Made by a program: the position numbers and the translations under genes
Shown here: positions 729 through 21,100 of the stretch, in pieces
Layout of the letters: each line of letters begins with the position of its first letter
How positions within the stretch are numbered: position 1 is the stretch's first letter
Notes under the pieces: generated by a model
Told to the model about the DNA's origin: nothing
What the model saw: only the letters and a program-made list of their open reading frames with translations
Databases searched by the model: none
From: a virus
Length of the DNA: 27,759 nucleotides
Reading direction: 5' to 3' (one strand)
IMG/VR virus record: IMGVR_UViG_3300027763_000192
Coordinates: 1-27,759 of that record

Positions 729-977
729 ATGGCAACAGTAGTCGTTAATTCTCCACAAGCAATTAAAGTAGGCGTAAACCTTCAATCCGGTTCGACTGTA
801 CAATCTTTAGGATATGGTGTTAATACACTAAAAGCACTAAAGGATTTTACTTTGCCGCCTGGAGCACAATCTGGAGGTGTTGTTTCATATAACGCAGCAA
901 CAAAAACTTTTACTGTAACTGCTATTGGTGGTATTGGTGATGCAGCTATCACTGTAGTAGATGCAGGATTCTTTTAA
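729..977 (+). CDS. small beta-rich structural protein (hypothetical)
   Basis: An 82-residue protein starting MATVVVNSPQAIKVGVNLQ and ending AAITVVDAGFF. It is rich in Val, Gly and Thr, with no charged core and no membrane segment. The middle '...FTLPPGAQSGGVVSYNAATKTF' reads as a beta hairpin. I do not recognise the family. The start is well supported by the AAGGAG site. Its stop overlaps the next start by one base (TAATG at 975-979), so the following fibre gene is probably translationally coupled to it. Its position between a small Ig-like protein and a fibre suggests a fibre-associated or baseplate-decoration role, but that is inference only. Confidence 0.65.
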   Translation: MATVVVNSPQAIKVGVNLQSGSTVQSLGYGVNTLKALKDFTLPPGAQSGGVVSYNAATKTFTVTAIGGIGDAAITVVDAGFF

Positions 978-3900
978 TGGCTAATACGACAATCAAGATC
1001 AAACGATCTTATGCAAACTCATCACCAATCTCACTATCGGATGGTGAATTAGCATACTCATTTTTATCAAACACATTATGGATTGGTAACACTTCTAACA
1101 CACCAATAGCTGTTACCGATAGTTCGGCAAGATTAAATTCTGTAAGTGCTTTCATTCAGGCTAATGCAGCATATGCGAGTCAAAATACAACAGGTGAATA
1201 CTCTAATGTGGCGTTTAGACAGGCAAACTCGGCATATAGTCTTGCTAATAATATTATAATTTTAGATTCTTGGACAAGAACACAGGCAAACGCTGCATAT
1301 TCTGCAGCCAACGTTGCGGATTCTAAAGCTACAACTTCAGGCTCATACGCCAACAGTGCATATATTCAGGCTAATGCAGCATATACACAATCTGTAACAT
1401 CAACAAATGATGCGGCAGGTGCTTCATCATATGCTAATAGTGCTTTTCTAAAAGCAAACTCATCATATCAATCACAAAACGCTTCAGGTTCATATGCCAA
1501 CAGTGCATATACTCAAGCAAATACTGGTGTTATCAACGCACTAGCAGCCGGTTCTTATGCCAATAGTGCATATACTCAGGCAAACACTGCAACATTAAAT
1601 GCAGCAACAGCGGATTCTAAAGCAGTATCAGCATCACTGTATGCTAACGGTGCTTTTATACAGGCCAATGCAGCGTTCAATACACAAAACACCACAGGCA
1701 ACTATGCTAACTCAGCATTTACTTTTGCTAACTCAGCAGGTTCTTATGCCAACTCAGCATATGCTCAGGCAAACGGTGCATCGATATATGCTAACGGTGC
1801 ATTTATACAAGCCAATGCATCATATGCATCACAGAACACCACCGGTAACTATACCAACTCTGCGTTCACCTTTGCTAACTCAGCAGGTTCTTATGCCAAC
1901 TCAGCTTTCTTAAAAGCCAATTCATCATATGATTCACAGAACGTAACCGGTACATATGCTAACTCGGCATTTTTGTCTTCAAACTCAGCTAGTTTATATG
2001 CTAACGGTGCATTTATACAAGCAAATGCATCATACACTTCACAGAATATCACTGGTTCTTATGCCAACTCGGCATACTATACTGCAAATTCATCATCTCT
2101 GTATGCAAATGGTGCTTTTACTCAATCCAATGCAGCATATACTTCGCAGAACACTACGGGTACATATGCCAACTCGGCTTATTACACAGCAAATTCAGCA
2201 CAACTATATGCTAATGGCGCATTTGTACAATCAAATGCGGCTTTCATACATGCAAATTCGAGTTATGCCGAATCAAACACATCAACAATTCGTTCCACAG
2301 GTGCTTTTATTCAAGCTAATGCGGCTTTTGCGGCTGCAAACATTGGTTCGTCTTTTGTAAATAATGGTGGAACAATCAATGGATCCGTTACAATTTCACA
2401 AAACTTGAATGTAACAGGCAACATAACACTTGGTGGAAATACAACATCAATCTCATCAAATAACTTATCGTTAACAGATTCAATCATTTATTTGGCTGAA
2501 GGTAACACAGGAAATACAGTTGATATAGGTATTGTTGGTAATTTTGTTCAAGGTAATTACCAACACACGGCATTATTTCGTGACCACCTTGATGGTCGCT
2601 GGAAGTTTGTTAGTAATGTTACCGTAGAACCAACCGACACCGTAACAATAGATGCAAACACAAGATATGACATTATTAAATCTGGTGGTATTGAAACTAC
2701 CGGTTATGCAAATATTGGAACAGTATTATATGTTGGATCCAATACCGGTTCTTTACTAGGTGGCGCAACTAATCCTGTTTTAGGTACATTAGGTTCAGCT
2801 AATAATTATATTCAATCGTATATCTTTAATACAGCAAACGGCACCAGTTCTTCTGCTGATTATGTTGCTTATCCAAATAATGGAAGCGATACTAGTGGTT
2901 GGATTGATATGGGTATTACGTCCAACAACTACTCAGATTCAACATATAATGTAACAGGACGTAACGAAGGTTACTTGTTCATGTCTGCACCAGCGGGCGT
3001 TCAAACATCTGGAAACTTAGTTTTTGCAACAGACTTCACCGGCACATATAACTCTATAGAATATTATATTGGTGGTTTTGCTCAAGGTAAATCTTCACCA
3101 GTGATGACTGTTAATCCTGGTTCAATTAATATTAATAAACCTTTGGTGTTTGTAGATAGTACGAAACAAAATACAGCAGCTGCACCTTTTGCTTATTCTA
3201 ATGCGGCGTTCTTGCAAGCAAATAGTTCTTATGGTAGTCAGAACACAACTGGTTTATATGCTAATTCCGCATATGCGACAGCAAACACTGGTGTTACCAA
3301 CGCTGCAACAGCAGATAGTAAGGCAGTGACTGCTGGTTCATATGCCAACTCAGCATACTACACAGCAAACTCAGCACAACTCTATGCAAACGGTTCTTTT
3401 GCACAAGCTAATGCTTCTTTTGCTGCACAAAATGTTTCAGGTTCTTATGCTAATTCAGCATACACTCAGGCAAACACCGGTGTAACTAATGCATTAGCAG
3501 CCAGTTCTTATGCCAACTCAGCATATACAACAGCAAATACTGGCGTTACCAATGCATTATCAGCTAGTTTATATGCCAACTCTGCATACAATCAGGCAAA
3601 CACCGGTGTAACCAATGCGGCAACGGCAGATAGTAAAGCAGTGACCGCTGGTTCTTATGCCAACTCAGCATATTATACTGCAAATTCAGCGCAAATATAT
3701 GCTAATGGTGCATTTGTTCAGGCAAATTCAGCTTATAATTCACAAAACGCAACCGGTTCTTATGCCAATTCTGCATACACACAGGCAAATACTGGCGTCA
3801 CCAATGCATTATCAGCAAGTTCTTATGCCAACTCAGCATATACAACAGCAAATACGGGTGTTGCCAATGCACTAGCAGCAAGTTCTTATGCCAACTCGGC

Positions 3901-4864
3901 ATTCACAGTAGCAAATACTAGTTTTACGAATGCTGCAGCTGCAAGTTCTTATGCCAACTCAGCATACACTCAAGCAAACACCGGTGTAACTAATGCCGCA
4001 ACAGCAGATAGTAAAGCAGTGACTGCTGGTTCTTATGCAAATTCGGCATTTTCAAAAGCAAACACCGGTGTAACTAATGCCGCAACAGCAGATAGTAAAG
4101 CAGTGACTGCTGGTTCTTATGCTAATTCAGCCTATACACAATCAAACACCGCCGTTTTCAATGTATTGGTGGCTAGTTCTTATGCAAATGCAGCTTTTTT
4201 ACAAGCAAACGCAGCAACATCAGTTGGTTCTAGTGCTGGCGATCAAGCTACAGTAGCAGATGCTAAAGCAGTAACGTCCGGTTCATATGCCAACTCAGCA
4301 TACTACACTGCTAACTCAGCACAGATTTATGCTAATGGTGCTTTCGCACGAGCAAATGCGGCATATGCACAAGCAAATACTGGTGGATTAGATACTTGGG
4401 TTAGAGGCCAAGCAAATGCAGCATTCGCGGCGGCCAATAATGCATTGCCATTATCTGGTGGTATAATAACCGGTGTAATTTCTTCCAATAGTGCAATCTA
4501 TGCTTCTTCGGTAATATCAAATACTTCATTCTCAGTTGGTGCTACCAATGTAATTGATATTTCTTCTAATACATACACAACATCTTCAACATCACAAGTA
4601 TCAATTGATTCTTTCGCAACTGCCACATATAGAAGTGTTAAGTATGATGTACAGATGACTTCAAGTACAAGTTACCATATGATTGGGTTGTCAGCGATAC
4701 ACAATGGCACTTCTGTATGGTTGGCACAATACGGCGAGATATATACTGGTTCATCGTTGGGTACCTTTGATGCTTCTATTACATCAGGTGTCCTTAATTT
4801 ATTATTTACACCAACAAACTCAGCAACTACAGTGAAATTGGTAAGAACATCAATAGTGGTATAA
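977..4864 (+). CDS. heptad-repeat tail fibre protein
   Basis: A 1295-residue fibre. Residues 1-50 (KIKRSYANSSPISLSDGELAYS...LWIGN) look like the virion-attachment beta domain found at the start of many phage fibres (Mtd-N type). Residues about 58-458 and 740-1155 are coiled-coil-like repeats of units starting YANSAY/YANGAF, with unit lengths of 14, 21, 28 or 35 residues. Between them lie beta modules: 'NLNVTGNITLGG', then 'IYLAEGN...VDIGIVGNF...ALFRDHLDGRWKF', then a Gly/Asn-rich module with 'NEGYLF', ending 'KQNTAAAPF'. After the second repeat block comes 'LPLSGGIITG', and then a C-terminal beta domain with 'YRSVKYDVQMTS' and 'IHNGTSVWLAQYGEI', a type often found at fibre tips. Expected to be a trimeric adhesin or stalk. 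ATG overlaps the previous stop; AGGA at 965-968 serves as ribosome binding site. Confidence 0.85.
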   Translation: MANTTIKIKRSYANSSPISLSDGELAYSFLSNTLWIGNTSNTPIAVTDSSARLNSVSAFIQANAAYASQNTTGEYSNVAFRQANSAYSLANNIIILDSWTRTQANAAYSAANVADSKATTSGSYANSAYIQANAAYTQSVTSTNDAAGASSYANSAFLKANSSYQSQNASGSYANSAYTQANTGVINALAAGSYANSAYTQANTATLNAATADSKAVSASLYANGAFIQANAAFNTQNTTGNYANSAFTFANSAGSYANSAYAQANGASIYANGAFIQANASYASQNTTGNYTNSAFTFANSAGSYANSAFLKANSSYDSQNVTGTYANSAFLSSNSASLYANGAFIQANASYTSQNITGSYANSAYYTANSSSLYANGAFTQSNAAYTSQNTTGTYANSAYYTANSAQLYANGAFVQSNAAFIHANSSYAESNTSTIRSTGAFIQANAAFAAANIGSSFVNNGGTINGSVTISQNLNVTGNITLGGNTTSISSNNLSLTDSIIYLAEGNTGNTVDIGIVGNFVQGNYQHTALFRDHLDGRWKFVSNVTVEPTDTVTIDANTRYDIIKSGGIETTGYANIGTVLYVGSNTGSLLGGATNPVLGTLGSANNYIQSYIFNTANGTSSSADYVAYPNNGSDTSGWIDMGITSNNYSDSTYNVTGRNEGYLFMSAPAGVQTSGNLVFATDFTGTYNSIEYYIGGFAQGKSSPVMTVNPGSININKPLVFVDSTKQNTAAAPFAYSNAAFLQANSSYGSQNTTGLYANSAYATANTGVTNAATADSKAVTAGSYANSAYYTANSAQLYANGSFAQANASFAAQNVSGSYANSAYTQANTGVTNALAASSYANSAYTTANTGVTNALSASLYANSAYNQANTGVTNAATADSKAVTAGSYANSAYYTANSAQIYANGAFVQANSAYNSQNATGSYANSAYTQANTGVTNALSASSYANSAYTTANTGVANALAASSYANSAFTVANTSFTNAAAASSYANSAYTQANTGVTNAATADSKAVTAGSYANSAFSKANTGVTNAATADSKAVTAGSYANSAYTQSNTAVFNVLVASSYANAAFLQANAATSVGSSAGDQATVADAKAVTSGSYANSAYYTANSAQIYANGAFARANAAYAQANTGGLDTWVRGQANAAFAAANNALPLSGGIITGVISSNSAIYASSVISNTSFSVGATNVIDISSNTYTTSSTSQVSIDSFATATYRSVKYDVQMTSSTSYHMIGLSAIHNGTSVWLAQYGEIYTGSSLGTFDASITSGVLNLLFTPTNSATTVKLVRTSIVV
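1149..2350 (+). repeat. coding heptad repeat block 1 (units of 42, 63 or 84 bases)
   Basis: From about 1360 on I split the translation at each YAN/YTN. Unit lengths are 28, 21, 21, 28, 21, 14, 14, 21, 14, 21, 14, 21, 14, 21 and 14 residues, then a longer tail still in register. Every unit is a multiple of 7 residues (21 bases). The two commonest alternating units are 'YANSAYYTANSAQL' (14) and 'YANGAFIQANASYxSQNTTG' (21). Expected to form a trimeric helical stalk. Confidence 0.85.
3184..4440 (+). repeat. coding heptad repeat block 2
   Basis: Successive units measure 21, 28, 14, 21, 21, 21, 28, 14, 21, 21, 21, 21, 28, 28, 21, 35 and 14 residues, again all multiples of seven. Characteristic units are 'YANSAYTQANTGVTNALAASS' minus its last residue (21 with it) and the 28-residue version ending 'ATADSKAVTAGS'. 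The register slips only at the C-terminal end, at 'DTWVRG' (6 residues), just before the 'LPLSGG' transition. Confidence 0.85.
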
Positions 4865-4865
4865 A

Positions 4866-7241
4866 ATGGCAGTCAATTTTGGTAGAGGCATAAGACTTAG
4901 AAGTGGTGTGAAGGTTGCTGGAGATGCAATCGCAGCAGCTGCGGTGCCGGACTCCATAGTTGTAGCTACCACAGGACCAGGAATCAACGGTGAGTATATT
5001 TGGGGTGCAGATGCTGGATATTTCTCGGTTGGAACAGTAACGAGTGATTATATCGAAGGATTATATTTGTATGAACAGTCGGGTAATCTAAATTCTGGTT
5101 ACACTTATGTAGTATTGAAGGACGGTTCATATTCAGGATCAGGATTTAATGTGTCTGGTCGTGGAATTGATGGTGATGGAAGCACATATCCAAGAACATT
5201 CACTGTGGGTGGCACCGATTATGTGTTTCAATTTAATGGATATAATTACTATAATTCAACAAATATTTTGGATTTAAAAAATAAAATTGGCCAAACAATC
5301 ACAGCAAAATATTTACCTGCTTCACAACCAACAGCACCAGCAGACAACACATTAACACCAGGCACTTATAGTTATTATGGTGCTAATTATTATGGTTGCA
5401 ATCGTGACTATACTGATGGCCTTGTTTATGGCATGTTGATAAGTTCATATTTTAATAAAATTGAAGTCTTTGTGAGTGGATCAACTGCAACCGAAATTAA
5501 ACTTAAACCAGGTACTTACACCTCGAATTCTACAAGTTTTAATGTAACTTCTCAAGGTGCAATTGATGCTGACACAAATGGATCTGCTAGATATTTTAAT
5601 GTGGGAGGAACTTCAGTTGTTACGACATATAATGGAACTTCATATGGTGCAACAGGTGATATATTCAATCTCGTAAGTAATTATGGAACTCCATTGAGTG
5701 CTATCTATGATCCCGCTGCACAATCAAGTGGTGGCGGCGGTGCTGGCAACAGTACTCCTGTGATGTTTAACAGCGGATTCCTTGACACATACAATGTTGG
5801 AACTGAATATGGATGGCGAAACGGCCTGTTTGGTAACGGTAGCTTTGCCGGATACCCAAGTAATCTTTCAGGATTTTGGTACGACTCCACATCCAACGAG
5901 ACTTATGTGGATTTGATAACTGGCACCTATTCACAAAATATTAATGGTAGCGGATATCCTACGATAACTGTAATCACAGACACAACAATAAATGGATACA
6001 GTGTACTTCGGATAACTGACGGTAATAACGTTACTGCAACTAGCACCTCGGCACAGAATCATACAGGCGGAGTTCGATTTGTGTTTGTGGGAGATCCTTG
6101 GGGATTACAAGCTCAAGGAAGTTTTGGGTATCTCTACATTAACAATATATCATACCTTGATGACGGATCAGGATTTATGCCAGTTGCCTACGGAGATATT
6201 AATATAGGATCCAATTTCCAAGGCGACTCATTCGGATGGACTACCGAGTATGGTTCATCGTATATTCAGCCAACCATGCTGGATCAGATTTACTATTTTT
6301 CACCAATTGGCACAGTAGTACAGTTTATTAGCGGAACATATGGTAGTATAGTAGTAGATGGTTCAGCATTAACAGTAGGAGGTAAGGATACTGTCACCGT
6401 AACTATTGGCGGAGTTAAACAATCAGGTACATTAGAATCGGGCGGACCTGGACCAAAAGTAGTATTTTCTGGAGACACGTTCGGTTTACAGTCTAAAAAT
6501 GGACAAACATCAACGGTTTTAGTAGTAGCTGGAACAGCCACCCCAGCGGGACAAGTTGCCGGCGGTACCATCACAGTTGGTACTGACCCTTTTAATCCAG
6601 GCGGTGTGTATGGATATTTTCCAGCAACAGGCGCTGGATCATCAACAATTAACCCAGCCATGGTGGGTCAGATAGTTTGGTTCAGTGGTGGCGGCCCAAG
6701 TGGATCAACTAATGTACGACTCCCATCAGGAACCTATGGCAGCGTAGTGGTTGATGGTAGTTTGGGCACTGTGAATGGCGAAACACAGTTGACCGTGGTG
6801 GTTGATGGTATCAGCCAAACTGGAACATTGTATGCCAGCGGCAGTTACGTAGAACTGATACTTGCGGGAGACCCATACGGTTTACAATCCAAGAACGGTC
6901 AGACATTGACAGTCTCTGTTATAGCCGGCGCAGGTGCTGGTGGCGGTAGAACAACATATACACCAAGTGGTAATTGGTATGGTGGAAGCTGGATGGAACA
7001 GGGTGGTGTACAATGGCAAGTTCGGTTCTTCTTAGAGTCATCACCAAATTCAGCATTGTTGGCCAGATTGAATTCGTTAACTAATGGTGATTTAATTGAT
7101 ATAACTTATAACGGTGTCACTGAAACTAGAACTATAACAAATGTAGGATACCCACCATTCAACGGTGGATCTTCTGTCTACATAACTACTGATACCGGAG
7201 GAAATATGTCCTGGCCAAATATTGATAGTATAGCGATATAA
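4866..7241 (+). CDS. beta-rich virion protein with two families of internal repeats
   Basis: A 791-residue Gly/Ser/Thr/Tyr-rich protein, start MAVNFGRGIRLRSG. It contains no heptad coil. Two repeat families are visible. Repeat A (about 75 residues) is at residues 84-155 and 212-286, sharing 'LK.G.Y...SFNV...G.ID.D' and 'FNVGGT...YNG'. Repeat B (about 125 residues) is at roughly 298-430 (divergent), 443-560 and 568-690, sharing 'SGTYGSxVVDGS', a short 'TVTIGGVKQSGTL' strand and 'GDPYGLQSKNGQT'. A glycine linker (SSGGGGAG, 287-294) separates A from B. A C-terminal domain follows (700-791). It lies one base after the preceding fibre gene, so it is probably co-translated. Most likely a fibre or tail-surface protein. 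I do not recognise the family. Confidence 0.7.
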   Translation: MAVNFGRGIRLRSGVKVAGDAIAAAAVPDSIVVATTGPGINGEYIWGADAGYFSVGTVTSDYIEGLYLYEQSGNLNSGYTYVVLKDGSYSGSGFNVSGRGIDGDGSTYPRTFTVGGTDYVFQFNGYNYYNSTNILDLKNKIGQTITAKYLPASQPTAPADNTLTPGTYSYYGANYYGCNRDYTDGLVYGMLISSYFNKIEVFVSGSTATEIKLKPGTYTSNSTSFNVTSQGAIDADTNGSARYFNVGGTSVVTTYNGTSYGATGDIFNLVSNYGTPLSAIYDPAAQSSGGGGAGNSTPVMFNSGFLDTYNVGTEYGWRNGLFGNGSFAGYPSNLSGFWYDSTSNETYVDLITGTYSQNINGSGYPTITVITDTTINGYSVLRITDGNNVTATSTSAQNHTGGVRFVFVGDPWGLQAQGSFGYLYINNISYLDDGSGFMPVAYGDINIGSNFQGDSFGWTTEYGSSYIQPTMLDQIYYFSPIGTVVQFISGTYGSIVVDGSALTVGGKDTVTVTIGGVKQSGTLESGGPGPKVVFSGDTFGLQSKNGQTSTVLVVAGTATPAGQVAGGTITVGTDPFNPGGVYGYFPATGAGSSTINPAMVGQIVWFSGGGPSGSTNVRLPSGTYGSVVVDGSLGTVNGETQLTVVVDGISQTGTLYASGSYVELILAGDPYGLQSKNGQTLTVSVIAGAGAGGGRTTYTPSGNWYGGSWMEQGGVQWQVRFFLESSPNSALLARLNSLTNGDLIDITYNGVTETRTITNVGYPPFNGGSSVYITTDTGGNMSWPNIDSIAI

Positions 7242-7269: not shown

Positions 7270-7287
7270 ATGAACCTTGGCTACTAA
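7270..7287 (+). other. 5-codon mini-ORF (MNLGY) overlapping the TTG start
   Basis: ATG at 7270 is followed by four codons and TAA 7285-7287. It overlaps the TTG start (7277) of the downstream gene in another frame. The nearest purine tract, GGGGA at 7263-7267, is only 2-3 bases from this ATG but 9 from the TTG, so the ribosome probably favours the TTG. A role as a leader is possible but unproven. Confidence 0.25.
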
Positions 7288-7900
7288 TTCAAATTTTGTC
7301 GTTAAAAATGGTCTAACTGTAGGCACCACGCCGGTCATTGATGGCTCAGGTGTATGGATTGCAACAAATCCTTCATCTAATGCTGCCTATACACAAGCAA
7401 ATACTGCAACCACTAATGCATTAGCAGCAGGTACGTATGCTAACTCATCATTTACTACCGCTAACAATGCGTTGCCTAAGTCTGGTGGTACAATGACAGG
7501 TAGTATCACATTATCTGGCGCTACCACATCTATTGTCTTTAATGATGGTAGTTCATTTAAGACAGCAAACAATTTACCAAGAGTTGTTTCAATCACTGAT
7601 GGTACATCTATTACAGTGAATATAGACACAACAGATTTGGCAATACAAACAAATACACAAGCGGCAGGTACATTAACAATCAACGCACCAACTGGTACAC
7701 CAAACAATGGCCAAAAATTTATAATTCGTGTTCAATGTACTAATGCACAAACACTTTCATTTAATGCAATATTTACGGGTTCAACTGATATAACTTTACC
7801 AAGCACTTCAACCGGATCCTCTAAATATGATTATATGGGTTTTATATATAATTCCACTGCAACTAAGTGGCAGATGGTTGCTAAAAACTTTGGATTCTAA
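7277..7900 (+). CDS. short tail fibre protein
   Basis: A 207-residue protein read from TTG 7277. The N-terminus (MATNSNFVVKNGLTVGT, then VIDGSGVW) is a common phage fibre start. The frame has TGA only two codons upstream (7271-7273), so no longer start exists, and TTG is the only usual start codon at this end. Residues 38-68 carry a short heptad coil (QANTATTNALAAGTYANSSF), then 'LPKSGGTMTG' and a beta domain with 'IVFNDGSSFKTANNLPRV'. The C-terminal half ('TINAPTGTPNNGQKFIIRVQ...WQMVAKNFGF') resembles the beta-sandwich ends of many phage fibres. It is preceded by a late promoter and is followed after 10 bases by a small gene. Probably a short receptor-binding or accessory fibre. Confidence 0.8.
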   Translation: MATNSNFVVKNGLTVGTTPVIDGSGVWIATNPSSNAAYTQANTATTNALAAGTYANSSFTTANNALPKSGGTMTGSITLSGATTSIVFNDGSSFKTANNLPRVVSITDGTSITVNIDTTDLAIQTNTQAAGTLTINAPTGTPNNGQKFIIRVQCTNAQTLSFNAIFTGSTDITLPSTSTGSSKYDYMGFIYNSTATKWQMVAKNFGF

Positions 7901-8102: not shown

Positions 8103-11100
8103 ATGGCAACATACTATTGGGTTGGCGGATCAGGCACCTGGAATAGTACAACTACCACAAACTGGAGTTTAACTTCAGGTGGTTCTGGTGGTGGCGGTGT
8201 GCCAACATCTGTTGATACCGTAAACTTTGATGCTAACTCAGGTACTGCTGCAACTGTTACTGTAGCAGATACTGCTGCATGTAATTTATGTATAGTAAAC
8301 AAGAGTGATATCAACATATCTCTTGGTGCATCTGTAACACTCATTTCTAATTTTAATGGTGCATTCACATTAACTGCCGGAACACTGACTCTCAATACTT
8401 ACACATTAGGAATTAGTAGATTTTATAGTAGTAATACAAACGCACGAACTATTGCATTTGGTACTGGTACTATTAATTTAACTGCATATAGTTCCGGTGG
8501 TAGTCCTGTTGTTATTTTGTCACCAACAACCAATATTGTAATCACTGGTACAAACCCAACACTTAATTTTACATCAAATACCCCTACGCAAGATTGCAGC
8601 AGTCAGGTTGGTTCTGTTCCTACTTTATCACTCAACGTTACTGGAAATTTTCAAAGTTTTGGTTTTTCATCACAGGCGTCAATTAAAAATTTAACTTTTG
8701 CTTCGGGATTTACTGGAACATGGTCTGAGGCTAATGCGGTGGTAATGAATGGTAATTTGATATTATCCTCAGGCATGACATGTGCAACTTTTGGTAATGG
8801 TAGAGAACTAAGTTTTTCCGGTACATCATCGCAAAGTATTACTAGCAATGGCGCACTCATCCAAACACCCATTAGTATTACTAATACTGTTGGGATTACT
8901 ACTTCAGGCGCTTTTACAACTATCAGCTCTTGGACAATATCCTCTAGCACATGCACTTTTGACCCCGGTGGAACATTTACAGTTGCATCATTTTTTTCTT
9001 CGTCTGCAGGCCTACAAAGTTTTGGTTATAATTATATAATTACCGGTTCCGGAAGTGCTTACACACAATCAACTGCCCGATCAAATTTTAGTTATAACAC
9101 AGGTGTCACTATATCATTGACAAATGCGAATGCTAAGACATTCGCCGGTGGTGGATCTAGATTTCCAGGAATAAATCAAGGTGGTGCGGGTACATTGACT
9201 ATCTCTGGTAATAATACTTTCAAAGATATAACCAATAGCGTCCAACCAGCTACTATTTTATTCACAGCAGGTTCTACACAAACAACAACTGCGCTTGCAA
9301 CCAATGGTACTTCTGGTAACCTAATTACGTTAGGTAGTACCTCTACGTCTGCATTTACTATTACACGAGATAGTTCTGGTACAAATAATTGTGTTTATTG
9401 TTCAGTATCCTATATGACTGGTAATACTACGGCTGCGACTGGTGGATATGTAATTTGGCAATTCAACTCAACAACAAACGGTGGTAATAACAGCAACTTG
9501 ACCATCGTTGCGCTGGTGTATTATTGGGTTGGTGGATCAGGAACCTGGAATAATACTACTACGACAAATTGGAGTTTGACTTCAGGTGGTTCCGGTAATG
9601 CTGGACCTCCTTCTGCAACAGATGCAGTTGTGTTTAATTCTAATAGCAGTAGTGGAAATTACACAGTAACTATTGAATCGGGCGCAGTTGCTCTGACTGC
9701 AACTATAGGTGCGCCTTCAAGTGGTACATTACAGTTATCTGGATCAGGTAATCTTACACTGTATGGTAATCTCACCATATCAACAGGGGTCATTCAGTCA
9801 TATACTGGCTCAATTTTGTTTTTAGCAGGAGCAAGTTTAACAACAAACGGATTAGCATTATCAAGCAACATAACATTTAATGCAAGTGTTGCATCAATAT
9901 TCTCTTTACTTGACAGTCTAACCACATCAGGAACATTTACACTAACACAAGGTACACTATCATTAGGATCGTATACACTAACAACTCAGAATTTTGATAG
10001 CAGCAATGCCAACACAAGAACTCTGGCGTTTGGAACAGGAAATATTACAACAACAGGCAGCGGTACGGTTTTTACAACATCAACTGTTCTTGGATTGACA
10101 GTTACAGGCACTCCAATAGTAAACATATCTAACTCTGGTTCAACGGCAACAACCGTATCAACTGGTGCAATATCCGAATCAAACTCAATATCGTTTAACT
10201 TTACAGCTGGAACATATGCATTGACCTTTCTAGGTAATGCTAGTGATCGTGCTAAGAATGTTAACTTTACCGGATTTAATGGTACTTTGAATGCCACAAG
10301 TACATCAACAATTGGTGGAAGTTTAACATTATCCAGTGGTATGACATTAACTTCTTCGGCCAGCGCTCTTACTTTTGCTGCAACGATTCGCGCACAAACC
10401 AACACAATTGCAACTGCTGGCAAAACATTAGATTTTCCTATCACTATTAATTATGAGCCGAATTCAACTCTACAGTTGAATGATACAATGACAATAGGAT
10501 CAACTAGAACACTGACCCTGACGCAAGGTACATTGAACCTTAATAACTTTAATTTGAGTGTTGGTATATTTTCGTCAAGTGGCACTAGTATTAGATCGGT
10601 TGGATTCGGCACCGCAAAGATCATTTTAACTTATGCAAGCACTACGACTGTGCTTAGTATGGCAACAGCAACAGGATTTACATCAACAGGTACTGGTGGA
10701 TTTGCTTCATCAATGGATGTTGCACAGACTTTTACAATTGGATCTACAGCCGGTACTATTACAACAACTGCTAATTTATTCTTAACAAACGGTAACTCAA
10801 TTGCTACACTGACAACTGGTAGTTATTTTAAGACTATTGATTTTACAGGATATTCTGGAACTCCTGCAACTACCACATTATATCTCGCTGGTTATGTATT
10901 AAGTACTGGTGGCACATTCACTAACATTACTGCTAGAATGATTGCTAATGGAAGTATTACTTCTAATGGTAAATCTATTGCTGCAATTGATGTTGGATAT
11001 AGTTCAGGCCTTGGCGGTAGTAGCTATACAATAACTACAATTTCAACTGCACTCCAAGGTACGGTAGGTACAATGGTTGCGGCAGCTTCTGCAGGCACTG

Positions 11101-12269
11101 GTCCAGTAGGAGCATATACTGGTACATCTAATAATGGATATTGGGTAATCACGCCAGGATGGAATATTTCATTTAATGGTACTAACTATACTACAATGTA
11201 TCCAGTGTCAAATATGTATGTTACGTTTGGAGCTGGATCTACAACTTCTTTTGGTTTATCTGCATCAAATCCTGCACTTCCAAAAATCATGATGCAAGCA
11301 TCTGATCGTTCTGTTCAAAGAATGTATTATCAGTTGACAGGTACAACACCAAATAGAACATTCTGGTGGCGTTTTGAAGGATCAACTGGTACAAGTGGTG
11401 TTGCCGGTTCTCCTTCAATGTTGTATGAAGGTTACATTTATGAAAATAATCCTTCAACAATAGATATTATTACAGGCACGATTGGTACTGGTGGTATTAG
11501 TGGCGTCTATTCTGCTTCAGCTCTTTTAAATGCTGCGGCTGGATTAGGAACATCAAACACTGGAACCAGAATTACTTATGTGGTAGTAAGCACATATCCA
11601 AATAGTACTACAACTATTGTAGACAACTTAAACGTTACAGGTACATTAACATTCACTAGCGGTACATTAACAACTATATCTGGTAACGTTACTGCAGGAT
11701 CGTTTTCAACGACTACTGCAACTGCAAAAACATTAGTCATGGGTTCTGGAACTTGGACAATTACTGATTCAGGTGCTACTGCATGGAACGTAACCAATCC
11801 ATCTTTCTTAACTGTTACACCAGGAAGTAGTACAATATCAATGAGTTCAGCTTCAGATAAAACTTTTGTGGGTGCTGGTAAAACTTGGAACAATTTAACA
11901 AATTCTGGAGCCGGACAATTAACAATTACTGATAGCAATACATTTGCAACGATTAGTAATTCAGTTTCGCCGGCAACATTCACATTTACTGCCGGAACAA
12001 CAAATACAGTATCAAATTTTAACATCAATGGAACATCAGGAAATTTAGTTACCTTACAAAGTTCAACTTCCGGTAGTACATTCACGATATCAAAATCTAC
12101 AGGAACAGTAACCACGAATTATGCAGCAATAAAAGATTCTGTTGTTACTGGTGGAGCTACGTGGTTAGCCCCAAGTAATTATGGAAATGTAAATAACGGA
12201 AACAACACAGGCTGGGATTTTTCAGCTATTGGTGGCACCTTTAACCCAGGGTTTTTATTATTTTTTTGA
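8103..12269 (+). CDS. giant beta-repeat virion protein (adhesin-like)
   Basis: A 1388-residue Thr/Ser/Gly/Asn-rich protein with almost no charge. It opens with 'YYWVGGSGTWNSTTTTNWS' at residue 4, and the same module recurs at residue 473. A repeated strand pair ('LTLTQGTLNL' followed by 'FDSSNANTRTLAFGTG') appears at about residues 107, 630, 823 and, degenerate, 1200. Related end modules starting 'KTFAGGG'/'KTFVGAG' lie at about 345-471 and 1253-1388. A different domain sits at about 1010-1160 ('YWVITPGWNISFNGTNYT', 'ASDRSVQRMYY', 'RTFWWRFEG', 'ENNPSTIDIITGTIG'), which resembles a NIDO-like beta domain seen in other phage fibres. Likely an elongated beta-solenoid adhesin. AGGA at 8089-8092 precedes ATG 8103. 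The gene ends in a T-rich stretch just before a promoter-bearing gap. Confidence 0.7.
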   Translation: MATYYWVGGSGTWNSTTTTNWSLTSGGSGGGGVPTSVDTVNFDANSGTAATVTVADTAACNLCIVNKSDINISLGASVTLISNFNGAFTLTAGTLTLNTYTLGISRFYSSNTNARTIAFGTGTINLTAYSSGGSPVVILSPTTNIVITGTNPTLNFTSNTPTQDCSSQVGSVPTLSLNVTGNFQSFGFSSQASIKNLTFASGFTGTWSEANAVVMNGNLILSSGMTCATFGNGRELSFSGTSSQSITSNGALIQTPISITNTVGITTSGAFTTISSWTISSSTCTFDPGGTFTVASFFSSSAGLQSFGYNYIITGSGSAYTQSTARSNFSYNTGVTISLTNANAKTFAGGGSRFPGINQGGAGTLTISGNNTFKDITNSVQPATILFTAGSTQTTTALATNGTSGNLITLGSTSTSAFTITRDSSGTNNCVYCSVSYMTGNTTAATGGYVIWQFNSTTNGGNNSNLTIVALVYYWVGGSGTWNNTTTTNWSLTSGGSGNAGPPSATDAVVFNSNSSSGNYTVTIESGAVALTATIGAPSSGTLQLSGSGNLTLYGNLTISTGVIQSYTGSILFLAGASLTTNGLALSSNITFNASVASIFSLLDSLTTSGTFTLTQGTLSLGSYTLTTQNFDSSNANTRTLAFGTGNITTTGSGTVFTTSTVLGLTVTGTPIVNISNSGSTATTVSTGAISESNSISFNFTAGTYALTFLGNASDRAKNVNFTGFNGTLNATSTSTIGGSLTLSSGMTLTSSASALTFAATIRAQTNTIATAGKTLDFPITINYEPNSTLQLNDTMTIGSTRTLTLTQGTLNLNNFNLSVGIFSSSGTSIRSVGFGTAKIILTYASTTTVLSMATATGFTSTGTGGFASSMDVAQTFTIGSTAGTITTTANLFLTNGNSIATLTTGSYFKTIDFTGYSGTPATTTLYLAGYVLSTGGTFTNITARMIANGSITSNGKSIAAIDVGYSSGLGGSSYTITTISTALQGTVGTMVAAASAGTGPVGAYTGTSNNGYWVITPGWNISFNGTNYTTMYPVSNMYVTFGAGSTTSFGLSASNPALPKIMMQASDRSVQRMYYQLTGTTPNRTFWWRFEGSTGTSGVAGSPSMLYEGYIYENNPSTIDIITGTIGTGGISGVYSASALLNAAAGLGTSNTGTRITYVVVSTYPNSTTTIVDNLNVTGTLTFTSGTLTTISGNVTAGSFSTTTATAKTLVMGSGTWTITDSGATAWNVTNPSFLTVTPGSSTISMSSASDKTFVGAGKTWNNLTNSGAGQLTITDSNTFATISNSVSPATFTFTAGTTNTVSNFNINGTSGNLVTLQSSTSGSTFTISKSTGTVTTNYAAIKDSVVTGGATWLAPSNYGNVNNGNNTGWDFSAIGGTFNPGFLLFF

Positions 12270-14052: not shown

Positions 14053-15152
14053 TGTCTACGCCATATTATAACAGAACAATTCGTAAGTTGGTTGTAGGCT
14101 TCGGTAACTTATTTGATAAGATTACCTTAGTCAGATATAATCCAAATAATACTGAAGCAGAACGATTCTTGGTACCTATTGCATATGCAGCCAAAGAACA
14201 TTATGTGATGCGTCTGGAAGAAGATTTGAACTTAGATAAAAAAGTTCAAATGACTTTACCTCGTTTGTCTTTTGAGATGACGGGTTTACAATATGATGCA
14301 AATAGAAAACTTAATACCAACACAAAAAGTTTTACGCAAACTCCAACAGGAGCTAAGTCTCAATACAATCCTGTACCTTACAATTTTGATTTTAATTTAT
14401 ATGTTTATGTTCGTAATGTAGAAGACGGTACACAAATCATTGAACACATTCTTCCATATTTTACACCAGATTATACCATCAAGATGAATATGGTTCCTGA
14501 AATGGGAATTATTAAAGAAATTCCTATCATATTGAATAATGTTACACAAGATATTCAGTATGAAGGCAACAGAAGTTCTGATCCAAGGATGATTGTTTGG
14601 ACATTAAATTTTACTGTTCGTGGTTTCATCTTTGGTAAAACATCCGATACTGGTGTTGTTACAACATCAATCACAAAGATATTAAATAAAATTACAGAAG
14701 ATGATGTTGTTGTATTCAACATGAGAACGCCAGGTGTTGGCACATATAAACAAGGTGAATATGTATATCAAGGTTTTTCACCAAACACTTCGACTGCTTC
14801 AGCAAAAGTTATTTCTTGGAAGAACAGTGCTTTACACCTAACAAATATTAAAGGAAACTTTGTTTCTTCACAACCTATATACAGCATCAACTCTAATGCA
14901 AATTATACATTTGAATCATATAACATGGCAGGAAAGATAACCGAACAATATGCACAAATAGTTGTTACTGCTAATCCAACTACAGCAAATGCAAATAGCT
15001 TGTTCACATATGTTGAAACACTTTCTGAGTTGAGTGGCGAACCAACTGTGGTTATTGGCAATGCAAATAATGAAATCGTTTATGCTCCGGCAAATCCATA
15101 CATACAACCAATAGACTATTGGGCAAATAACGATATAGACTTAATGCAATGA
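14052..15152 (+). CDS. 15: tail sheath stabiliser/completion protein gp15, with C-terminal extension
   Basis: A 366-residue protein starting MSTPYYNRTIRKLVVGFGNLFDKI, then 'AAKEHYVMRLEEDLNLDKKVQM', 'LPRLSFEMTGLQYDANRKLN', 'DGTQIIEHILPYFTPDYT' and 'SDPRMIVWTLNFTVRGFIFG'. This is the T4-like gp15 pattern of cyanophages. In T4, gp15 caps the tail tube and sheath as a hexamer and docks the tail to the neck. The family core ends near residue 195. Here another 170 residues follow, containing a beta module at about 228-300 that resembles one in gp14, and a tail ending 'PANPYIQPIDYWANNDIDLMQ'. T4 gp15 is 272 residues, so this is long. It overlaps gene 14 by one base and the following fibre gene by four (ATGA). 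Confidence 0.85.
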   Translation: MSTPYYNRTIRKLVVGFGNLFDKITLVRYNPNNTEAERFLVPIAYAAKEHYVMRLEEDLNLDKKVQMTLPRLSFEMTGLQYDANRKLNTNTKSFTQTPTGAKSQYNPVPYNFDFNLYVYVRNVEDGTQIIEHILPYFTPDYTIKMNMVPEMGIIKEIPIILNNVTQDIQYEGNRSSDPRMIVWTLNFTVRGFIFGKTSDTGVVTTSITKILNKITEDDVVVFNMRTPGVGTYKQGEYVYQGFSPNTSTASAKVISWKNSALHLTNIKGNFVSSQPIYSINSNANYTFESYNMAGKITEQYAQIVVTANPTTANANSLFTYVETLSELSGEPTVVIGNANNEIVYAPANPYIQPIDYWANNDIDLMQ

Positions 15153-18100
15153 CAAAAAAATTACAATTTAAAAGATACTCAAACACAGCATTAAGTACTA
15201 TAGTTGGTGCTGATGGTGAATTGATTATTGATAGTAACACAAAAACCCTAACGATACACGATGGAGTAACCTTAGGTGGTATAAGACAAGCTTCGGAAAG
15301 TTTCACCAAGCAAGTTTATGATCAAGCAAATGTATCGTTCACTAAGGCCAATGCAGCATACAATCAGGCCAACACCGCCAATAATTTGGCACAAGCAGCA
15401 TACACATTAGCAAATGCCGCAGGATCATCTGCAAATACAATTGGTGCATTTTTGCAGGCTAATTCTGCATATAATCAAGCAAACACTGCAACGAATAATG
15501 CATCAGTTGCTTCTTTGTATGCTAATGGTGCATTTGCACAAGCTAATGCTTCTTTTGCAGCTGCGAATAATGTATTTCCACAAATTGCTCCTTCGTTTAA
15601 TACAGCCAATGCGGCGTTTACTCAAGCTAACTCTGCATATACACAGGCAAATACAGCTACAACTAATGCATCCACAGCTGATTCTAAGGCAGTAACATCA
15701 GGTTCATATGCCAACTCAGCATACTATACTGCAAACTCAGCCTCTCTGTATGCAAATGGTGCTTTCGCTATGGCGAATTCGGCATATTCTGCGGCAAATA
15801 ATGTTCTTCCACAAGTTCAACCTTCTTTTGATCAAGCAAATGGTGCGTTCTTAAAGGCAAATGCTGCATATGAAAGTGGTAATGTAACGGGAACATATGC
15901 GAATACCGCTTTCTCTTATGCAAACTCGGCAGGTTCTTATGCTAACTCAGCGTATGCACAAGCAAATAGTGCTTCATTATATGCCAATGGTGCTTTCTTA
16001 CAAGCCAATGCAGCATTCATTAGAGCAAACACACCAGATGCTATAGCCAATTCTGGTGCATTATATGCTAACGGTGCATTTATACAAGCGAACGCATCAT
16101 ATCAATCACAGAACACAACTGGTTCATATGCAAACTCAGCATACACAGCAGCCAATACAGCCGACTCTAAAGCGGTTACTGCTGGGTCATATGCAAACTC
16201 AGCATACTATACCTCAAACTCGGCACAAGTATACGCTAACGGCGCCTTTGCAGCTGCGAATTCAAAACTTAGTTCTGCTGGTGGCACAGTTACAGGTAAC
16301 GTAACAATTGATGGATCATTAACGGTTGCTGGTAATATTAATTTTACCGGCAATGTAATAAGCACCGCAATTTCTGGTAATACCGGTCAATTTTTTGGTT
16401 ATGCGTCTAACGGTTTTAATGCTTTGTATGCCGGTATTCCAACAGGATACTTTTTAGAACCACAAGTAACTTTCCAAGTGTCTAGTAACTTTGATGGTTA
16501 TGCGGGTCTTAATATGCAGAATATTAATTCCGGAGCTAATTCATCATCAGACTTATTCATCACAGCAGATAATGGAACCATCAATGATGGTTTCTTAGAC
16601 CTTGGTTTCTCATCATCAAATTACAATTATCCAGGTTATTCTTTAATTGGTAAGAATGACGGTTACTTATTTGCTACCGGTAACACAATATCTGGTGGCG
16701 GTAACATGATTATTGGTACAGGATTAAATAACGATGTTGTTTTTTCCGTTGGTGGCCTTAGTACAACAAATGAAATAGCAAGATTTAAATATAATACCGG
16801 TTTAGTATTAAAGAATTTACCAATAACATTTAGTGATGGAACAAAACAGAATACAGCAGCTGCACCGTTTGCTGTAACTAATGCTGCATTTATACAGGCA
16901 AACACTGGTGTAACCAACGCATTAGCAGCAAGTACATATGCAAATTCATCATATACCCAAGCGAATACGGCAACTACCAACGCACTAGCGGCCAGTTCTT
17001 ATGCTAACTCAGCCTACACTCAGGCAAATACGGCAACTACCAACGCACTAGCAGCCAGTTCTTATGCTAACTCATCGTTCACAGTAGCAAACAACGCATT
17101 TACACAAGCGAATACTGCAAACACTACGGCCAACAATGCACTGCCTAAGTCTGGTGGTACAATAACTGGTAACTTAGCAGTTACTGGTAATGCGTCTTTT
17201 GGTAATTTGAGTGTCACCGAATCAAGCACATCAATAAGATTAAAATCAAATACCACAAACAATAAGTCGGTAATATTGGAAACTGATGGTGTAAGCAATT
17301 TCAGTAGTGTAATATCTGAAAGTGCAACTGAGTTATATTGGAGTTCTAATACTTTAAATTACAATGTAAGTAATCCACCAAACGCTGAATTTTCTAAAGT
17401 AACACTCGATTCGTCAGGAATATATCTATCTACTGGTGACCAAGATGGTAACCGTGGTTTGACTGTGGCGCCGGTAACAGGTGCTATTCAGATTGATGAC
17501 TCATTGACTGTTTTTGGTGACATTTCAAGCGGCACGATGCACTCGTATGGAGACTTAATTGTTGATGGCACTTTGTATTCGAATGGTGTTTATTCAAATA
17601 CTGTTAACGTATTAGATCAAGCAAACACTGGTATTGCACTTGCACAACAAGCATATAATGCGTCCAACTCTGCTGGTTCATATGCAAATTCAGCATTCAC
17701 AAAAGCAAACAATGCACTTGCAAATACTGGTTCTGTTATTACTGTTAATGGCGTTTCTCAATTAGTCATTGCAAATACAACGAGTTCTACTTCAAAAACC
17801 ACAGGCGCTTTGGTTGTTGCTGGTGGTGTTGGCATAGCCGGTAATACTTATATTGGTAACAATCTAACCTCAAACACATCTTCGATTGCGAATAGTAACT
17901 CTTTATTCTCGACAGTCGGTACTGGTCTATACAGCTGGGAAAATTCAGGACAAACACTTAACCTTGCAACAGCATCACCAACTGGTGCGGGTGAAGGCAC
18001 AGCAACTCAGATATTCTTTAAACCAGATGGCACAAAATTATTCATAGTTGGCCAAGCAGCAGATAAAGTTACAGAATTTACCTTATCATCACCTTGGAAT

Positions 18101-21100
18101 TTATCATCTGCATCCAATACTGGTTCAGTATCAATTATATCACAAGATACATCATCAACAGGTTTATTCTTCAAGCCTGATGGTACTACAATGTACATGA
18201 TGGGTGATTCAAGTAATACTATTTTCCAGTATACACTATCAACGCCATGGCAAGCAAATACCGCCACATATGCCAATAAATCCAACAACGTAACACTTGC
18301 CTTGGGTACCGCAAACGAAATTGCACCAAACGATATCTTTTTCAAATCTGATGGTACATCTGTCTTCATTACTGGTGGAACATTCTCAGCTCTTTATAGG
18401 TTAGATTTATCTACACCTTGGGATGTTTCGACTATAACGAATCCTGTTGTATCAATCACAAACGTGCCTAGTACACCCCGTGGTTTGTATTTTGATCCTG
18501 ATGGAACTACTCTGTATATGGCTGGACAAACCAGTGATTGGATTAACCAGTATACTATGGCAACCCCCTGGGACATTGCAAACTCTGTAATAGTTTCAAC
18601 AAAATATATTGGTCATATTGAATCAGGCATTCAATATCTTTGGGTTGCTTCCGCTAACGGATATGCTTATCTTGGTGGTACTACTAATGATACGATATAT
18701 CAATATTATACTAATAACGGTTTTAAATTAACTGGAAACAATTTTGTTGTTGCGGCCGATACTACTTTTGCTAACACTGTTTATTTCGATAATACAGTTC
18801 AAAGTGCAGCGTTCAGAAGTGGTGTAAGATTTATTGGATCGGCATCATTTGCAACAGGTAGTTGGAGTTCTACTGCATTAACTGCAACATCTGCGGTTAA
18901 CTTTTCAGGAACAACATCTACAATTACTATTACTAATGCTGCAACAACAGGCACTATAACTGCTGGTGGTCCAAGTCAAACTGGCCAGATTACTTTAGGT
19001 CAATCAGCAGTAACACAAACTTTAAACTTACATAGTGGTGCAACAACAGCGGGTAACATAAAGACATTAAACCTTGGTGTTGGTGGTCTTTCTGGTTCTA
19101 ATACATTAATTTTTATTGGTTCAGTAAACTCTGGTTCTCAGGGTACTACAACAATACAAACACCAAATGTAATTGTAACTTCAGCCAATACCGCGCAAAC
19201 TGTTGTTCAAATTTTAGGAACATCTGCTGCAATATCAAACTCTACTGGTGCTTTAGTTGTTGCTGGTGGTATTGGTTCTAATGGTGCCATCTATACAACT
19301 GGTGGTTCAATCACAATTAATAATGGATTGGCCACAACAGGTAACTCAGGAACAATTTTCTTGGGTGATGGTAATTTCACGAAAACATATGGTTCTGGTT
19401 GGACTTTCCCAGGTTCTGGTGTCACATCAGGTTCATTTACTGCAACTACATCGCCGAGTTTCCAAGGACAATTAGGTTCAAATACAGCCACATCACACGG
19501 CCTTGTTGGCACTGCTGGTGTTGGAATGTATTTCCCAACAAATGGTTTGGTTGCTTTTGCAGCAAACACAGCAAACGCTTTATTCGTTTCTGCACCAGCA
19601 GGTGGTGTCAACTATCTGCAAGTAACAGGTTCAAATACAGGTAACGCCGTAATATTCTCATCGCAAGGTACTGACGCAAACGTAAGCATGTTGATGAAAC
19701 CACAGGGAACTGGTGCATTTGATATACAAACGGCCAACGGAGTAAACATTAGTAACGGCGGTACTGTTACTGCGCTGACTGTTACAAACAGTGGAGCTAC
19801 TTTTTATTCAACACAGCCAACATTAGTAATTTCAGCGCCTACAACTGCTGGCGGTGTTCAGGCTGTAGCTACACCAAATATGTACGCAGACCAAGGTACA
19901 ACGGTAGCTGCTGGTGGTAGTGGTTATGCCGTGGGCGACACATTAACTTTGGTTGGTGGTACGCCACTAACTAGTGCAGCTACATTTACTGTTGCGACTG
20001 TTTCTGCTGGCGCTGTATTGACTGTTAATGCTCTTAACTATTCACCATATTCTGTTTTACCTTCCAGCCCAGTATCAACAACTGTTAGCCCCGCAGGTGG
20101 GACGGGTTGCACGCTTACAGTTCGTTGGAAATTATATACACCCACCATCACAAACGCAGGTTCAGGCTACGTAGAACAACCAACAGTAACATTCTCAGGC
20201 GGCGGCGGTAGTGGTGCGGCGGCTTATGCTACTGTTGGTTCACCCACAATCGTTAAGAGCATTGGTGCCGTTATGTCGTTTTATACTCCTGGTGGAGAAC
20301 AATTAAGAATTAACGATACTTATGGCGGTGGCGGTGGCGGCCCAGCAGTAAACTATGTTACCGCAGCAGGTCGTGGCGTGGGCGCTGGTCCAGTTATTGC
20401 GGTTGCTGGTAGTGATCCAAGCATAGTATTAAATCTTGTATCCAAAGGAACTAGCGGAGTTTCAATTGGCACAAACAATGGCGCACAACAACAATTTAAT
20501 ATTTCTCATACAGCATCTGCGGTTAATATTTTAAACGTAACAGGTAGTCCAACGGGTTCAAATCCAATAATTTCATCACAAGGTAGTGATACAAACTCAG
20601 CAATTGTATTACAACCAAAAGGTACCGGCGGTGTTGATATTTCTGCTGGGGCAAACGGTGTAAGCATTGCTAACGGTACTTCTATTACTGCTATTACTGT
20701 TACTCAAAGAGGAGGCAGTTATACATCTGTTCCAGCATTAGCAATCACAGCCCCAACCACCGCTGGAGGGACTCAAGCCACTGCAAGTGCAAAGGTTTAC
20801 ATTCAAAGCGGAACAGTCGTTTCTGGTGGAACTGGTTATTCGTTAAACGATGTTTTAACTGTTTCTGGTGGTACTCCAGCAAGTACTGCTGCGACTGTTA
20901 CTGTTACTGGCGTATCTGGTGGAGTTATCACAAGTATTTCTTCAACAAACTTTTCCGACTACACAGTAACACCAGCAAACCCAGCCTCAGTAACAGGCGG
21001 CACAGGAACACTGGCAACTTTTAACTTTTCGTATCAAGTTAGTAGTGGTTTTAACATCACAGCCGCAGGTTCAGGTTACGTAGAACAGCCAACAATTACT

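Follow-up and report, generated by a model that had tools for sequence, protein, structure and literature searches.

The large open reading frame F1 (977-4864, + strand; 1,295 aa) contains two long repeat arrays whose units seem to come only in whole heptads, which raises the question of whether this quantisation reflects a fibre shaft that tolerates only register-preserving changes of length or the way in which repeats multiply. The window, that is, the whole stretch of DNA analysed (27,759 nucleotides), is a 27.8-kb virus record that carries T4-like neck and sheath-stabiliser genes (gp13, gp14, and gp15) together with large structural proteins. F1 matches phrog tail-fibre families with E values down to 7e-12, the arrays themselves contributing to these matches, and both the matches and the location among tail and virion structure genes place it among the tail fibres. 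Upstream of F1, a small ORF (374-715, +) resembles LtfC (Pfam E 6.6e-5, below the cut-off) and the phrog_3304 family 'L-shaped tail fiber protein assembly' (E 5e-20). Two paralogues also carry heptad stretches. The 207-aa F2 (ORF 7277-7900) matches F1 and has a short one (7385-7474, +) with AN at aa 41, 55, and 62 in one mod-7 class, while F3 (ORF 15149-21625) has a first array at aa 104-375 (15458-16273, +), 67% identical to F1 block 1 and with all AN marks of aa 104-370 in one class, and a second at aa 584-665 (16898-17143, +), with a 63-base tandem repeat and the AN marks of aa 584-661 in one class bar one extra AN. F1, F2, and F3 are probably tail fibres of a T4-like myovirus with an alanine-zipper, most likely trimeric, shaft, in which selection that protects the register lets through whole-heptad insertions and deletions.

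Among the remaining ORFs, the one at 24945-27758, which runs off the end of the window, matches the virion structural protein family phrog_5838 (E 5e-260). The 791-aa product of ORF 4866-7241 is rich in Gly, Ser, Thr, and Tyr and has internal GTYGSVVVDGS repeats, with no confident family match, and the 1,388-aa product of ORF 8103-12269 starts with ATYYWVGGSGTWNSTTTTNWS and holds a second internal copy of this motif, with no Pfam or PHROG match.

F1 begins with a small beta fold of short strands (aa 1-50; 977-1126, +; pLDDT 68-88), and this N-terminus is common to F1 and its sequence relatives, whose matches start at the same point. It is a candidate Mtd_N-like attachment or head domain: Mtd_N (PF18454) is matched by nine of 28 relatives at E <= 0.001 and by F3 just below the cut-off (26.1 versus 26.3 bits, E 8e-6), and a Pfam search of F1 gave no Mtd_N match. 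Foldseek with the F1 N-terminal model returned nothing meaningful, which is uninformative because the model is poor. The first array, coil block 1 (aa 57-463; 1145-2365, +), would reach ~61 nm if fully helical, and it is recognised by its YAN spacings, a 3.5-residue peak of Ala and hydrophobic residues, and a mainly helical AF2 model of low confidence. The non-repeat inter-coil domain that follows (aa 464-737, ~274 aa; 2366-3187, +) is matched over its full length in five relatives (E 1e-117 or better) and partially in others; it is drawn with strands in a low-confidence model and is likely to be a beta-rich knob. Coil block 2 (aa 738-1160; 3188-4456, +), defined by YAN spacings, heptad rows, the AF2 model, and 3.5-residue power, would span ~63 nm if fully helical. 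The C-terminal domain (4457-4864, +) holds a beta-sandwich from ~aa 1193, modelled as eight strands with pLDDT 70-91, and its best Foldseek match is T4 gp9 (1qex, E 2.4e-5), followed by the tailspikes 6e1r and 6c72. T4 gp9 is a trimer. Since a Peptidase_S74 chaperone domain also ends one relative (L013) and Mtd_N occurs in others, these domains together with the gp9-like C-terminal domain indicate that the fibre is probably trimeric. The beta-sandwich (at window 4604-4861) is also related in sequence to the ends of proteins from S-SM2 and S-SRM01.

Within both arrays, the heptad register is kept strictly. The first-pass annotation had claimed about 30 units of only 14, 21, 28, or 35 residues, and counting over aa 124-411 of block 1 and aa 761-1118 of block 2 bears this out, with 30/30 YAN-YAN spacings taking one of these values; the naive figure of (1/7)^30, ~4e-26, is not a real probability because the F1 repeat copies are related by duplication. 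A further YAN at aa 12 is part of the N-terminal domain and lies outside the array. Other marks in F1 behave in the same manner, as 51 of 53 occurrences of the looser [AS]N[AGST][AGS][YF] and 73 of 80 AN fall in one mod-7 class each. The sole off-register spacing is the slip already noticed at first reading, DTWVRG (4391-4408, +; a shift of -1), where the spacing is 13 and 14 would fit. At the DNA level, all 13 tandem-repeat rows (TRF, whole window) have periods that are multiples of 21 bases, namely 21, 42, 63, 84, 105, 147, 210, and 315. The unusual composition described earlier also holds, with 24-28% Ala, 13-14% Asn, and 11-13% Tyr plus Phe, but only 8-9% Leu/Ile/Val/Met and 3.5% charged residues. 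The interval first proposed for the repeats, 1149-4440, does contain the heptad blocks, but it takes in the ~274-aa non-repeat domain (2366-3187) as well. That blocks 1 and 2 share one mod-7 class was considered as a meaningful signal and rejected as chance; it is uninformative because long non-coil gaps across relatives are multiples of seven in 30 of 228 cases, i.e., at the chance rate of 1/7.

The spacing rule extends well beyond F1. Three scans of viral contigs yielded 171 related loci with 138 non-redundant ORFs, in which 3,791 of 4,174 motif spacings of up to 45 residues (91%) are multiples of seven, a count that overstates independence since near-identical loci are included. Moreover, in alignments of homologue pairs sharing 60-99.5% identity, 52/65 of the unique indels inside arrays were multiples of seven residues (21 bp) versus 2/47 outside (Fisher 6e-17), although exchange with other fibre genes might produce the same picture; with a flank identity of at least 0.8, the proportions were 36/39 and 1/6. 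The aligner is not the source of this excess, because random-length indels simulated in the same blocks gave 14-16% multiples of seven from a true 12%. Clean DNA-level gaps of 168, 63, 315, and 147 bp, with flank identities of 0.85-1.0, were found for four events, and only these count as DNA-confirmed, because three of seven pairs (L023/L029, L173/L176, and L013/L019) lacked a single clean gap when scored with free end gaps. Thus, the suggestion that register is kept while length moves in 21n-base steps is upheld across the relatives, and the comparison of lengths proposed along with it gives array lengths that differ mostly by 21n bases.

Such a pattern could also arise as a mutational by-product, if the arrays had grown from a 21-base unit whose in-phase copies then slipped or recombined unequally, with no selection on a coil, and this reading, although unlikely, is the strongest competitor. 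It would account for every tandem period in the window being a multiple of 21 bases and for a very recent event between the 99.8% identical L043 and L045, which shows 25 nt of exact junction homology. Small off-register indels, furthermore, are not significantly depleted (12 per 2,533 substitutions in arrays versus 29 per 3,758 elsewhere, p 0.2), so that their mild scarcity was rejected as proof of selection. However, not one of 44 in-register indels involves a recently made tandem copy, with 90% DNA identity as the lower limit, and exact homology at most junctions is no longer than 5 nt, so slippage alone explains the quantisation poorly. The in-register excess persists at precisely these junctions, where 20/26 of those with 0-2 nt of homology are multiples of seven although the full set of possible junctions predicts 11%, and 14/14 of those with 3-5 nt where 24% is predicted, although homology may have decayed since the events. 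The motif is also written in diverse codons (its 31 hexapeptide copies are encoded in 25 different ways at the DNA level, with a dN/dS of ~0.31 among copies), and the same phase is held by heptads as unlike as NALAASS, KAVTAGS, SQNTTGS, and YANSAYT. The duplication of 42/63/84-base units put forward at first therefore stands in part: diverged repeats of 63, 105, 147, 210, and 315 bases are present in the window, but the in-register indels are not recent tandem duplications (0/44). Selection on register is better supported than repeat-homology slippage alone, and we infer that it is the cause of the quantisation. In the model favoured here, surviving insertions and deletions would add or drop whole heptads (21n bases) because helix packing would demand a seven-residue register.

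A register of seven residues does not by itself specify a fold, and the periodicity within the heptad is what points to a helix. The Ala periodicity of the arrays peaks sharply and dominantly at 3.5 residues, and hydrophobic power at this period is 14-35, compared with a shuffled 95% level of ~3, and is ~0 at 2.0, the pattern that a left-handed helical coil, and not strands, would give. Heptad columns 2 and 5 are occupied by Ala in 65-86% of heptads and are spaced like a and d. As read from the sequence, F1 heptads would thus resemble an alanine zipper, in which Ala fills a and d while b is taken by Asn and g and e by Tyr or Phe. This arrangement departs from the tyrosine core envisaged by the first-pass annotation, as Tyr and Phe come to lie beside the core; its Ala-rich coiled-coil stalk remains as an inference, consistent with the 3.5-residue periodicity and the Alanine_zipper (PF11839) matches in relatives. 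Such matches occur in five of 28 relatives (best E 7e-22), L013 scoring above the cut-off of 23.1 bits (30.5) and F3 below it (19.0), while a Pfam search of F1 itself gave no match to PF11839 or to any other family. The likeness of the F1 arrays to an alanine zipper would accordingly be one of working, and membership of PF11839 is not claimed.

It is improbable, somewhat more so than the by-product reading, that the arrays adopt another seven-residue fibrous fold, for example a beta-structured one or a disordered polar linker. Asn, Ser, Thr, and Gly have a low propensity for helix, which counts against helical arrays, and the arrays are rich in Asn, Ser, Thr, Tyr, and Gly and almost uncharged. 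AF2 monomer models draw the arrays mostly as helix, against such a fold, but lend the helix little weight because the array pLDDT is very low (about 30-50), a value that itself counts in favour of such a fold. The dominance of Ala and hydrophobic power at 3.5 residues with none at 2.0, the Alanine_zipper profile matches among relatives, and the distribution of Pro, present in 5% of in-register segments versus 22% of register breaks, all argue against it. An Ala-cored trimeric coiled coil, which is most likely and is predicted for the shaft, is the best reading because periodicity, Alanine_zipper matches, the gp9-like C-terminal domain, and the S74 domain come together; the AN-rich arrays would then form the shaft of the fibre as a left-handed parallel alpha-helical coiled coil. 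It is very improbable that the 21n-base differences among contigs are metagenome assembly errors in repeats. In favour of this reading, repeat collapse would yield in-phase deletions, and 25 nt of homology are found at the junctions of a 168-bp event between contigs that are otherwise near-identical. Against it, most events separate homologues that have clearly diverged and share little sequence at the junctions, and the spacing rule is seen within single contigs, with no comparison needed.

Non-coil domains and short stop/restart cassettes, TDPWVRTQANAAF for example, would be the only places where the proposed coil resets its register. Among the relatives, 305 distinct register breaks cover all six offsets, and many of them recur as cassettes, among them ANNATDPWVRTQANSAF, TSTDSWARNQANAAF, and SGSIDNYARTTANAAY; related W-x-R cassettes also stand at breaks. 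Together with the Pro content, this suggests that break cassettes stop the helix and allow an N-capped restart. The F1 slip, DTWVRGQANAAF, is probably a cassette of this stop/restart kind, and LDSWTRT (1262-1282, +) is, from heptad rows and cassette contexts, an in-register form of the W-x-R restart motif. Breaks among the relatives were also checked for a bias towards stutter or stammer lengths, and none was seen, as all six offsets occur. The D-x-W-x-R cassette lies at or near heptad breaks in the window (1262-1282 and 4391-4408) and in L142, L129, L067, L009, and L039, and its spacing from the preceding AN varies by family (mod 7 = 5, 1, 2, 0, and 6). It seems to open a new helix-like array.

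Several elements of this design have precedents: alanine zippers are known, as are coiled-coil stalks in phages and stalks whose register is broken at defined points. The alanine-zipper outer-membrane lipoproteins (PF11839) share with the F1 arrays an Ala-rich heptad coiled coil. They are short, whereas the arrays here run to ~400 residues, are nearly uncharged, carry Asn at b and Tyr or Phe at g and e, and belong to phage fibres. The C-terminal beta-sandwich matches T4 gp9, the long-tail-fibre connector, best and then trimeric tailspikes of Acinetobacter phages, but only over 108-118 alignment columns at 9-17% identity, and the long Ala arrays lie outside the matches. In trimeric coiled-coil stalks with alpha/beta coiled coils, defined insertions break up the heptads and either perturb the register or set it anew (PMC4786415), whereas the breaks here are W-x-R or Pro/Gly cassettes in all six offsets. 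In Plasmodium vivax MSP3-gamma, which belongs to an alanine-rich coiled-coil family, length follows heptad number and all six kinds of phase shift occur, without tandem amino-acid repeats (PMC7335089); this protein is unrelated, and the F1-type arrays differ in having tandem repeats.

Neither F1 nor a 28-member profile matched any solved-structure sequence in the PDB. The array was absent from the proteins examined in the isolate phages S-SM2, S-SRM01, Manatee Spring phage, and Mosig, which share C-terminal or neighbouring genes, and was not found by DNA and protein searches of phage records, where the low-complexity filter of BLAST limits sensitivity. Pattern searches plus tblastn over 84,980 bacterial and archaeal genomes confirmed no array, and literature searches on alanine-rich coils, Alacoil, and heptad indels found no description of it. 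A fibre of Synechococcus phage S-SRM01 (L182, 6300-7808) carries another short repeat, GVSTFSGYSNAS, with non-heptad spacing.

The F1 stalk would thus be a version of the known Ala-coil stalk that is decorated with Asn and Tyr, set apart by the nearly uncharged Ala/Asn/Tyr heptad, the length of the arrays, and the clear 21n-base indel rule in a group of uncultured phages. More tentatively, and with rather less than even confidence, the YANSAYTQAN-type heptad may define a distinct class of close-packed Ala-core coil that serves a large group of uncultured phages as a modular shaft, complete with stop/restart cassettes of its own, and fibre reach would then evolve stepwise (~1 nm per heptad). 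The Ala/Asn/Tyr coil is a design for which sequence searches of the PDB reveal no solved relative. It offers a clean natural case in which indel lengths reveal a structural constraint, with whole heptads gained or lost in arrays and not elsewhere in the same proteins. If shaft length drifts in steps of ~1 nm, as the model would have it, the length of a phage fibre becomes a discrete trait that is readable from sequence.
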